The translations under genes were made by a program, and so were the position numbers. The notes under the pieces were generated by a model, which worked only from the letters and a program-made list of their open reading frames with translations, did no database searches and was not told where the DNA came from. From contig NZ_LR134386.1 in the NCBI RefSeq assembly GCF_900637665.1, positions 4,952,501-5,016,500 of the forward strand: 64,000 nucleotides of DNA, written 5' to 3'. Below, piece after piece: positions 49,965 through 52,796 of this stretch. Numbering within the stretch: the stretch's first letter is position 1; each line of letters starts with the position of its first letter. The DNA is from Chryseobacterium nakagawai. Its GTDB lineage: Bacteria; Bacteroidota; Bacteroidia; Flavobacteriales; Weeksellaceae.

Positions 49965-51590
49965 ATGGCAAAAGAAATAAAATTCGATATTGAATCAAGA
50001 GACGCTTTAAAAAGAGGTGTAGATGCATTGGCTAATGCAGTAAAAGTAACTTTAGGTCCTAAGGGAAGAAATGTGGTGATCGAAAAATCTTTCGGTGCTC
50101 CACACGTAACTAAGGACGGGGTGTCTGTTGCAAAAGAAATCGAACTTGAAGACAGAGTAGAAAATATGGGAGCGCAAATGGTAAAAGAAGTTGCGTCCAA
50201 AACTAATGATATCGCAGGAGACGGTACTACTACCGCTACTGTTTTAGCACAAGCTATCGTAAGAGAAGGTCTTAAGAATGTAGCTGCCGGTGCTAACCCA
50301 ATGGATCTTAAAAGAGGAATTGACAAAGCAGTAACTGCAGTTGTTGAAAACCTTAAATCTCAATCTAAAACAGTTGGAGATTCTACAGAAATGGTAAAAC
50401 AAGTTGCTTCTGTATCTGCTAACAATGATGAAACGATCGGTGCTTTAATCGCTGAAGCTTTCGGAAAAGTAGGTAAAGAAGGAGTAATCACTGTAGAAGA
50501 AGCTAAAGGTATCGATACAACAGTTGACGTTGTAGAAGGTATGCAGTTTGACAGAGGATACCAGTCACCTTACTTTGTGACTAACCCTGAGAAAATGTTA
50601 GCTGAACTTGAAAACCCATATATCCTTTTAGTAGAAAAGAAAATCTCTTCAATGAAAGAATTACTTCCGGTTCTTGAGCCAATTGCACAAGGTGGTAAGT
50701 CTCTATTAATTATCTCTGAAGAAGTGGAAGGGGAAGCTTTAGCTACTTTGGTGGTTAACAAACTAAGAGGTTCTCTTAAAATTGCTGCTGTAAAAGCTCC
50801 AGGATTCGGAGACAGAAGAAAAGCAATGTTAGAAGATATCGCAATCCTTACAGGTGGACAGGTAATTTCTGAAGAGCAAGGTTTCACTATGGAAAACATC
50901 TCTTTAGATATGCTTGGAACTGCTGAGAAAGTAACGATCGACAAAGACAACACAACGGTTGTAAACGGTGGTGGTGACGAAGCGAAAATCAAAGGAAGAG
51001 TAGCTCAGATCAAAGCTCAGATGGAAACTACAACTTCTGACTACGACAGAGAGAAGCTTCAGGAAAGACTAGCTAAGTTAGCTGGTGGTGTTGCTGTACT
51101 TTACGTAGGTGCTGCTTCTGAAGTTGAAATGAAAGAGAAAAAAGACAGAGTTGATGATGCCCTTCACGCTACAAGAGCAGCTGTTGAAGAAGGTATTGTT
51201 GCAGGTGGTGGTGTTGCTTTAGTAAGAGCAATCTCAGCTTTAGATAACCTTACCGGAATCAATTCTGACGAAACGACAGGGATCAAAATCGTAAAAAGAG
51301 CGATCGAGGAGCCATTAAGACAAATCGTTGCTAACGCAGGAGGTGAAGGTTCTGTAATCGTTGCTAAAGTAGCAGAAGGTTCAGGAGACTTCGGATACAA
51401 TGCTAAAACTGACGAGTATGTTCACATGCTTGAAGCAGGAATCATTGACCCAACGAAAGTAACAAGAGTTGCCCTTGAAAATGCAGCTTCTGTATCTGGA
51501 ATGCTTTTAACAACTGAATGTGTAATCACTGAAGTGAAGAGCGCTGAACCAGCTATGCCAATGGGTGGTGGAATGCCGGGAATGATGTAA
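49965..51590 (+). CDS. groL: Chaperonin GroEL
   Basis: 541 aa. [20 protein letters not shown] at the N-terminus, the ATP-binding TLGPKGRNV and [13 protein letters not shown] motifs, and the GGM-type tail ([11 protein letters not shown]). It is the ATP-driven folding chamber working with GroES. The 3' end of this gene, plus its terminator, is duplicated about 1.1 kb downstream (52619-52796), which marks the groEL end as an insertion point. Confidence 0.98.
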
Positions 51591-51620
51591 TAGCAAGTCG
51601 CTAAGACAAATTTAATATAT

Positions 51621-51653
51621 AAACCGTTCTGCTTTTGTGGAGCGGTTTTTTTA
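51621..51653 (+). terminator. Terminator of groES-groEL
   Basis: AACCGTTC paired with GAGCGGTT (G-T tolerated) and a T run. The same hairpin reappears at 52764 in the duplicated groEL tail. Confidence 0.75.
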
Positions 51654-51781
51654 TTCTGGTTTTCCGTAAGGAAATACTATATTTATATTTTATTTTTATT
51701 GATTAACAAATAGATAGCCCTAATAAAAGCAATATTAGCGCAAATTGTATATATAGTATTTGAACATTTAACATAAATTTT

Positions 51782-52549
51782 ATGACTAACATTACACCAG
51801 AAGATAAGTTTAAGGAAATTTTAAAGCCATTAAAAAACGGAAGCTCATTATTATGGATTGGAATTCCATTAGTTCTAATAGCTCCTTTTCTTTTTACAAG
51901 GAGTTTTGGTATCTTAGATTTTACTGAAACAGGAACTATTGGTGACACAATCGGTGGAATAACTGCACCGATAATAGGTTTAATTGGTGCTATTTTAGTA
52001 TTTCTTGCATTAAAAGCGCAAATTCAAGCTAATATACTTGTTCAAAAACAAATAGAAAGTCAAGAACAAGATAAAAAAATTGAAAATGAAAGTTTGCAGT
52101 TAAATAAATTATATGAAAACTTAAAAAGTAGCATTGATAATTTTAGTTATACAACATTAGATACTTGGGAATTTGCAAATCTAGATAATATTAAGCTAAT
52201 AGGCTCAGAAGCATTCTATAAACTTTTCCAAGACTTTTATTGTGACTCACACTTAAATGAAGATGACTTAAAAACAAATCCAAAGATTACAGAAGTTATA
52301 AGTATTTTACAGATATGTGATACTTTGTTAGATAAAATTCTAAAATCAAATGTATACGATAAAGAAACGTTATATCTTTTGACAATGCATCAATTTATAT
52401 ATAGAGTTTTTCCAAGAATAAGTTCTGATTATCCAAATAATATTGAAATTTACTACTGTGAAAGTTGTAAAAAAAATCACGGATTTCCTTCAAAAATCTC
52501 AAGCTTGTTTAAAAGTATTATCGCTAAATGTGATAATAAAACATGCTAA
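51782..52549 (+). CDS. Two-TM protein resembling putative phage abortive-infection (putAbiC) proteins
   Basis: 255 aa. Two hydrophobic helices (about 22-38 and 58-80) are joined by GILDFTETGTIGDTIGGITA, then a coiled segment (about 80-120) and a soluble C-terminal part with a CESC...C cysteine cluster near residues 225-250. The GTIGDTIGG-plus-TM arrangement resembles the putative phage abortive infection protein family, whose best-known members kill or arrest infected cells. This is an inference from layout. The gene is AT-rich and sits exactly between groEL and a second groEL tail. Confidence 0.6.
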   Translation: MTNITPEDKFKEILKPLKNGSSLLWIGIPLVLIAPFLFTRSFGILDFTETGTIGDTIGGITAPIIGLIGAILVFLALKAQIQANILVQKQIESQEQDKKIENESLQLNKLYENLKSSIDNFSYTTLDTWEFANLDNIKLIGSEAFYKLFQDFYCDSHLNEDDLKTNPKITEVISILQICDTLLDKILKSNVYDKETLYLLTMHQFIYRVFPRISSDYPNNIEIYYCESCKKNHGFPSKISSLFKSIIAKCDNKTC

Positions 52550-52618
52550 AAAAATTTCTTCCAACATTGTATTGGCAAGATACAGTTAGAGTCTGGAATT
52601 GAAAATCCTTCCACTTTT

Positions 52619-52734
52619 TTGAAAACGTAGCTTCTGTTTTCGGAATGCTTCTACAACTGAATGTGTTATCACTGAAATTAAGAGCGCTGAACCAGCTATG
52701 CCAATGGGTGGTGGAATGCCAGGAATGATGTAGT
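52619..52734 (+). pseudogene. Duplicated 3' fragment of groEL, frameshifted
   Basis: About 115 bp corresponding to the last ~38 codons of groEL (compare 51476-51590), from TTGAAAA to the stop region, including the [14 protein letters not shown] end. My hand alignment gives roughly 90% identity over the ~175 bp that also include the downstream spacer and terminator. One base is missing relative to the intact gene (near 52652), so it is out of frame and has no start. It is a remnant, and it marks the right edge of the inserted segment. Confidence 0.85.
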
Positions 52735-52763
52735 AGCAAGTCGCTAAAACAAATTTAATATAT

Positions 52764-52796
52764 AAACCGTTCTGCTTTTTGTAGGGCGGTTTTAAA
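52764..52796 (+). terminator. Duplicated groEL terminator
   Basis: AACCGTTC with the G-rich arm GGGCGGTT, homologous to the hairpin at 51621 with a few substitutions and one extra T. Confidence 0.65.

Follow-up and report, generated by a model that had tools for sequence, protein, structure and literature searches.

A groEL-anchored array of gene cassettes in Chryseobacterium, bounded by copies of the groEL end and probably derived from an integron-like platform

In Chryseobacterium nakagawai (assembly GCF_900637665.1, contig NZ_LR134386.1), we examined a window of 64,000 nt (positions 4,952,501–5,016,500) in which the chaperonin gene groEL is followed by a second, partial copy of its own 3′ end, and a single gene is enclosed between the two (Table 1). 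The repeated segment, here called a tail, comprises the last ~38 codons of groEL, the stop codon, a spacer and a terminator stem. The two tails were 91% identical (BLAST), with an ungapped core of 127 nt (51510–51636 vs 52653–52779) at 95%. The register between them was 1144 before about position 52653 and 1143 after it, and tail copy 2 therefore has a 1-base deletion that breaks the reading frame. A preliminary description of this DNA had proposed a duplicated groEL end of ~175 bp at ~90% identity, with a 1-base deletion in the coding part, one gene between the copies and a SIR2-TPR gene downstream. All of these were recovered, the last of them past the second tail and outside the tail pair. 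Only two tail matches (E≤0.001) were present in the whole genome (G000; 5.6 Mb in one contig), and among direct repeats of at least 45 nt in the window, the tails were accompanied by just one pair of Kelch-gene paralogs, in two pieces. The enclosed gene was the single open reading frame (ORF) of at least 80 aa between the tails and was located on the groEL strand. It is preceded by a truncated leader, of a kind that adjoins integron-like recombinases in relatives, and followed by a 5′ arm resembling that of an attC site; no match to a full attC-like site was found in the window piece searched. With regard to similarity to tail copy 2, the host groEL ranked 54 of 98 groEL genes.

Table 1. Features of the groEL locus in the window (position 1 is the first base of the window)
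Feature	Position	Strand	Basis
groEL, anchor gene; the repeated tail derives from its last ~38 codons	49965..51590	+	ORF list
Tail copy 1: 3′ end of groEL at its native place, including stop, spacer and terminator stem	51475..51649	+	Sequence comparison, BLAST
Truncated leader: post-terminator piece and first part of attI/promoter-like leader	51647..51759	+	Profile positions 3–111, E 3e-20; 81%
Cassette gene, 255 aa; N-terminal membrane segments judged by eye	51782..52549	+	ORF list
attC-like 5′ arm past the cassette gene and before tail copy 2; 23-base motif with 4 mismatches	52562..52584	+	Motif search
Tail copy 2: degenerate groEL 3′ end, 1-base deletion, terminator stem kept	52619..52793	+	Sequence comparison, BLAST
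SIR2-TPR gene in variable flank past last tail; not tail-bounded	52843..55737	-	ORF list, family matches

When used as a query, the tail DNA matched 172 of 173 Chryseobacterium genomes, many of them several times (maximum six). The groEL loci of 100 relatives (up to 20 kb each) were picked from the best-scoring rows of these 172 genomes, and the usable set consisted of 98 groEL loci (97 relatives and the window). L072, L080 and L081, in which the match was not a full groEL, were left out of the 98-locus counts, the tail ranking and the decay, tree and divergence tests. L072 and L080 (and partly L081) were included in the counts of edges, ORF-less gaps, empty sites, cassette families, leaders, attC-like sites and attC arms, which refer to the first 101 loci and to 172 tails. 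One or more additional tails were found downstream of groEL in 74 of the 98 loci, with 171 copies altogether; this rate is biased because the relatives came from the best-scoring rows. When a coding part of at least 30 nt was required, 134 plus-strand copies in 69 loci remained, and no minus-strand match touched the tail coding part in any of the 98 loci. Chance is therefore excluded; an artefact was likewise rejected, as the arrays also occurred in one-contig genomes. Up to eight extra tails were observed at a locus, so that several units, integrase-free, are stacked at one gene end. Neither this stacking nor the integron-like platform presented below had been part of the preliminary description.

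Tail positions are given relative to the groEL stop, with minus values in the coding part. The 3′ edge was located 58–69 bp past the stop position, just beyond the terminator stem, in 103 of 172 tails. The 5′ edge was variable, mostly between −230 and +20 with one at −246 in a later locus, and no fixed att core was seen at both unit ends. Also, 5′ edges taken per cassette family ranged from −229 to +19. In 10 of 76 families the most-5′ edge fell within −206 to −196; this cluster was weak (scan P 0.075), and a fixed joint at −202 was considered suggestive and not adopted. A palindromic repeat (AAGTCTCCNGACTTTGAG ... AAAGTCTGGAGACTTCGG in L116, ~+4900 to +5010 past groEL) was noticed directly before several tails, at the ends of cassettes L053.2, L126.1, L087.2 and L095.0, and in the window at 55896 and 60276. 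groEL itself contains the end of this repeat, GGAGACTTCGG, near −205, which might offer microhomology for joining.

The DNA between tails was organized in a regular manner. Among 154 gaps of 250–6000 bp (median 991 bp), 112 contained a single ORF, and this ORF was on the groEL strand in every case, starting ~100 bp past one tail and ending ~40 bp before the next (medians). Of all ORFs in these gaps, 223 of 245 had the same direction as groEL. At the nucleotide level, 152 cassettes fell into 76 families, and 18 of the 23 families with at least two members were found at differing array positions. The earlier idea of a hotspot whose occupied sites carry varied cargo thus held. A stringent search for the Bacteroidota promoter pattern gave matches upstream of 14 of 112 single ORFs vs 1.7% in shuffles, which points to a promoter in only a minority of cases.

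We next consider what the tails preserve. A frameshift or in-frame stop was present in 37 of 91 tails with a coding part of at least 90 nt. The terminator piece folded at a mean of −14.4 kcal/mol vs −6.4 for simple shuffles, and its eight stem pairs were standard in 136–147 of 149–150 copies via several pair types. The coding part decays while the terminator fold and pairs persist, which gives the tail the appearance of a joint combined with a terminator rather than of part of a protein. When each of 92 tails was compared with all 98 groEL genes, the groEL of its own host ranked first in 18 cases, counting ties (median rank 8.5). Tails are thus often foreign, resembling the groEL of another species more than that of the host. 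The type of the untranslated region (UTR) agreed with that of the host groEL in 56 of the 79 tails (of 150) for which both could be classified, which suggests that exchange between tails and the groEL of the host occurs as well. The possibility that tails form a separate lineage was unsupported: tails and groEL genes were intermixed on a tree, with 52 label changes compared with a mean of 58 and a minimum of 48 in shuffles.

If units are added at the groEL end, an empty site should have one tail, and its flank should continue as the flank of an occupied relative. This was seen in 4 of the 25 loci without an extra tail, in which the flank past groEL corresponded over 0.5–2.8 kb to the flank past the last tail of an occupied relative. 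For example, L092 (no extra tail) and L073 (three) shared 91% over 2829 bp; the other pairs were L058/L124, L041/L060, and L120 with both L108 and L091. The proof from empty sites rests on these four loci because the other untailed loci either shared short stretches (8 loci, up to 173 bp and largely leader) or had no occupied partner (13 loci). On the whole, the proposed insertion by recombination at the groEL end, with one tail left as a remnant, was supported and its predictions mainly held, with tail copies lacking an insert as exceptions.

Exchange of cargo was most evident for a cassette family with a 275-aa ORF, which was 98.7–99.3% identical among four species whose groEL genes were 88.5–91.8% identical (six pairs). 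At the level of sequence comparison, this demonstrates transfer of the cassette between species. The identity began around the terminator and faded within the following tail, with nothing in common beyond. Fitted edges of the shared block varied from +13 to +116 on the left and from −57 to −158 on the right in the six pairs, and more widely in all 20 pairs; the cargo was thus transferred with breakpoints in common flanks. Such spread breakpoints favor homologous recombination.

Additional evidence came from a leader of ~150 bp. The first 101 loci yielded 107 matches to it; all 107 had the groEL orientation, and 57 came directly after a detected tail. In three genomes (G066, G298 and G056), a 277-aa tyrosine recombinase gene was located directly behind the groEL terminator, facing groEL; G298 belongs to another genus, and its recombinase protein was 90% identical. 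The recombinase scored 220.2 against NF040815 (“site-specific tyrosine recombinase/integron integrase”; cut-off 220) and 198.3 bits, in two stretches, against TIGR02249, below the cut-off of 265. Matches to the recombinase at E≤1e-70 were present in 42 genomes, and 12 recombinase loci from these were analyzed. In all 12, the leader started 31–78 bp past the recombinase start, and attC-like sites followed in 11, nearly all on the gene strand with two weak exceptions. Eight such sites were found behind groEL in G298, and in G056 groEL was followed by the recombinase, the leader, genes and, after these, a copy of the groEL tail with 90% identity. Broken recombinase genes were present at two further groEL loci (G142 and G110). 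In the latter (L271), a 161-bp piece beside the broken gene was repeated ~1.9 kb further on with 94% identity.

Chryseobacterium and a sister genus also had integron-like platforms at chromosomal places other than groEL (G105, L268; G065, L261; G163, L262; G180, G302, G224 and G296, L263–L266). These had a short XerA/integron-type recombinase, the leader and up to eleven attC-like sites, the eleven forming a row in G105. In all, 53 attC-like sites (E≤1e-6) were detected in 15 loci, namely the 12 recombinase loci, L220, L116 and L118, where hits in the last three are partly by construction, since L220 supplied the initial profile and L116 and L118 were among the loci used to refine it. The mean bottom-strand folding z of these sites was −3.36 relative to simple shuffles (below −2 in 37 of 53), showing that folded attC-like sites lie between cassettes in the platforms of relatives. 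In contrast to these loci, 74 control loci (1.45 Mb) had no attC-like or leader match. The attC 5′-arm motif occurred in the first 101 loci 48 times on the plus strand and twice on the minus strand, vs 7.3 expected from simple plus-strand shuffles. Taken together, an integron ancestry of the groEL site is well supported.

We consider it rather probable that the groEL 3′ end carries a cassette array which descended from an integron-like platform, and that the tails together with homologous recombination now move its units. A typical unit would combine a leader, which probably includes a promoter, with a single gene in the groEL direction and a partial groEL 3′ end copy retaining the terminator. 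The ancestral platform would have been located directly behind groEL, with a recombinase gene facing groEL, an attI/promoter-like leader and attC-like cassettes. Copies of the groEL tail may then have become attached to the cassettes, at or close to the attC-like ends of these, and the recombinase would have been lost, rather than absent all along, leaving most genomes without it at groEL. Tail plus leader would thereafter serve as a common homology block on both sides of a unit, through which units could be inserted, swapped and lost by homologous recombination, presumably RecA-dependent and probably with DNA from natural transformation. Natural competence has been reported for the related Riemerella and Elizabethkingia (PMC8459023, PMC5981450). 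A further-reaching proposal, that a site of integron type, lacking its recombinase, has switched machinery and uses copies of the end of an essential gene as universal joints, by which DNA arriving with a groEL end could add or swap an expressed gene through ordinary homologous recombination and leave groEL unharmed, is more tentative, and we would put it at somewhat less than an even chance.

Three other explanations deserve attention. Tails could be att copies left by small elements that a tyrosine recombinase inserts at the groEL 3′ end, followed by accretion of islands without an integrase. The preliminary description had drawn a similar analogy with att sites, which was only partly right. 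The uniform orientation of coding tails, the recombinase genes at groEL in some genomes and the 10 families with edges near −202 all fit, and phage-inducible chromosomal islands (PICIs) use the groEL 3′ end in staphylococci (PMC8125051). However, tail edges of families are widely spread and the cluster is weak, fitted breakpoints vary as well, and no recombinase using the tail as an att site was found; the recombinases that were found come with attC-like sites and the leader, also far from groEL. Besides, the platform recombinase had no counterpart at E≤1e-70 in the window's genome, whose nine PF00589 matches were all at least 100 kb from groEL, so that no integron integrase lies beside the window array. 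We therefore regard this explanation as unlikely. It is less likely still that an integron-like recombinase, acting in trans at attI- and attC-like sites, is the sole mover, with tails as passive neighbors of the leader. The constant position of the leader next to the recombinase start and the attC-like arms at some cassette ends, including that in the window, are in its favor, but transferred blocks start ~100–200 bp before the end box of the leader and end in or near the coding tail, not at one box, and full attC-like sites are few in tailed arrays. Finally, a local duplication of the groEL end with later unrelated insertions, and no exchangeable cassette system, appears very improbable. The agreement of UTR type between tails and hosts and the tails without insert would be expected from it, whereas the presence of foreign tails and of mostly one-gene units in one direction would not, and the near-identical cassette DNA in distant hosts already contradicts it.

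Returning to the reading we prefer, an integron-derived array now moved by homologous recombination, several observations weigh against it or limit it. The 5′ edges of tails never extended beyond −246, which free joining does not explain. Eleven gaps, most of them shorter than 100 bp, had no ORF, and in L079 the sole extra tail followed after 89 bp with no ORF between, so that a tail copy without an insert, named beforehand as a sign against insertion, does exist in places. In G029 (C4), groEL lies near 25 kb and tails near 71 and 74.8 kb (L227, L229 and L080), bounding a cassette; being 46–50 kb from groEL, these tails show that units are separable from the anchor gene. Leaders were away from any detected tail in 50 of 107 cases. 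In the first 101 loci, the recombinase was found in L116 (G066) only, with a 36% relative in L064. An attC 5′ arm occurred within 120 bp upstream of only 14 of 172 tails (the window's included). With stricter shuffles, one of two attC-like sites of L220 was significant (z −2.21) and the other was not (z −0.23). A duplicate of 330 bp beside the recombinase was absent in 9 of 9 platforms away from groEL. Frequent crossovers predict an excess of divergence in the groEL end, but the last 200 nt were not generally more divergent than the rest in 96 loci (truncated L071 and L131 excluded). Such an excess, comparing the last 100 nt with the region upstream of −300, was present in the three closest pairs (0.294/0.032 for L087–L055, 0.147/0.059 and 0.176/0.070) and absent in the fourth; at the species level, groEL itself shows no sign of frequent crossovers. 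With regard to RecA and DNA uptake as a possible driver, the window's genome carries comEC- and dprA-type genes, as do most control bacteria. Finally, relatives of the 255-aa gene were found near groEL in none of the 9 other genomes in which the place of groEL was known; with these matches away from groEL, no second case of the window gene as a groEL cassette was seen.

The cargo was examined by family scans of 98 of 113 representative ORFs (25 most shared families per scan). Defence-type families included SduA, AbiTii, SEFIR/TIR, SoFic, SLATT, GajA/Old/PtuA-like ATPases, GmrSD and PIN; other cassettes encoded hydrolases, Kelch proteins, immunity-type proteins or unknown ones. The enclosed gene of the window had been called a putative defence gene, a label that received weak support: its 255-aa protein had no Pfam match and a weak LeoB match (E 0.0028), and among the 120 listed of its 155 relatives, at least three carried PF16872 (aligned over 20–52% of the query) and at least two were named phage abortive infection protein. 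Matches to this protein (E≤1e-10) were present in 11 of 173 Chryseobacterium genomes, its own included.

The arrays appeared largely confined to the genus. With the groEL C-terminus as a protein query, which would miss decayed tails, at least two matches were obtained in many Chryseobacterium genomes, and exactly one in each of the 143 matching genomes (147 examined) from other genera of the family. Among 80 named groEL loci, mostly of other Bacteroidota, a tail copy was found in C. paridis (L179) only; five further loci labelled Chryseobacterium had no tail copy. For four of the 80 loci, the sequence available downstream was shorter than 1.5 kb. Confinement is not strict, however, in that 4 of 13 loci of sister genera (L217, L218, L219 and L221) had short matches limited to the UTR and terminator, and 3 of 13 (L220, L214 and L217) had a leader match. 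Plasmid and phage records gave eight tail matches each, all at 60–80% identity and none from Chryseobacterium, and two viral contigs carried groEL without tail copies.

Other features were noted past the second tail of the window. The SIR2-TPR gene in the variable flank encodes a SIR2_2 and TPR protein of 964 aa, with ThsA and LmuA as best PADLOC matches. A helix-turn-helix (HTH) gene (55933–56244, minus strand) and a 174-aa gene (56730–57254, plus strand) had look-alikes in the variable regions of L114 and L123, where ORF size and start agree, and perhaps in L106 and L042, where size alone agrees; they may mark the old flank. Kelch-type genes at 59348–59814 and 63000–63463 formed the other direct repeat (78–81% identical), and Kelch-like genes were seen by eye inside tail-bounded units of L091, L110, L111 and L124.

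The site behind groEL is thus an easily located place of gene exchange in a genus of environmental bacteria and opportunists. It is rich in uncharacterized and defence-like genes, and none of the plasmid and phage records searched showed it. It offers a simple rule for spotting new genes of interest, namely to read the DNA between groEL tails, and it may serve as a natural test of whether general recombination can keep and reshuffle cassette arrays once an integron-type recombinase is gone. In the literature covered, which was partial with most subscription journals outside, we found no account of arrays jointed by the end of a housekeeping gene or of Chryseobacterium integrons behind groEL.

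Several known systems share features with these arrays. Neisseria minimal mobile elements have variable cargo at a fixed place, exchanged via transformation and homologous recombination in common flanks. Their flanks are the neighboring genes, whereas here each unit has its own flank copy, which allows arrays. Staphylococcal PICIs target the same gene end and leave groEL intact (PMC8125051). Integrase-free stacks at gene 3′ ends are known as cis-mobilizable elements (CIMEs) formed by tandem accretion (PMC5704250) and resemble the present arrays in that units without an integrase accumulate at the end of one gene, copies of which are repeated along the stack; the units described here differ in being ~1 kb long, mostly with one gene, variable tail edges and no att core shown. 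There is also a likeness to chromosomal integrons and to clusters of attC sites without an integrase (CALIN; PMC8618304). Like these, the groEL arrays consist of tandem one-gene cassettes in one direction with mostly unknown cargo, and some groEL loci have a tyrosine recombinase, a leader and attC-like sites, while elsewhere the cluster is recombinase-less. Unlike them, the joint is a copy of the end of a housekeeping gene and not an attC site, units often have their own leader and terminator, and common blocks end in or near the tails.
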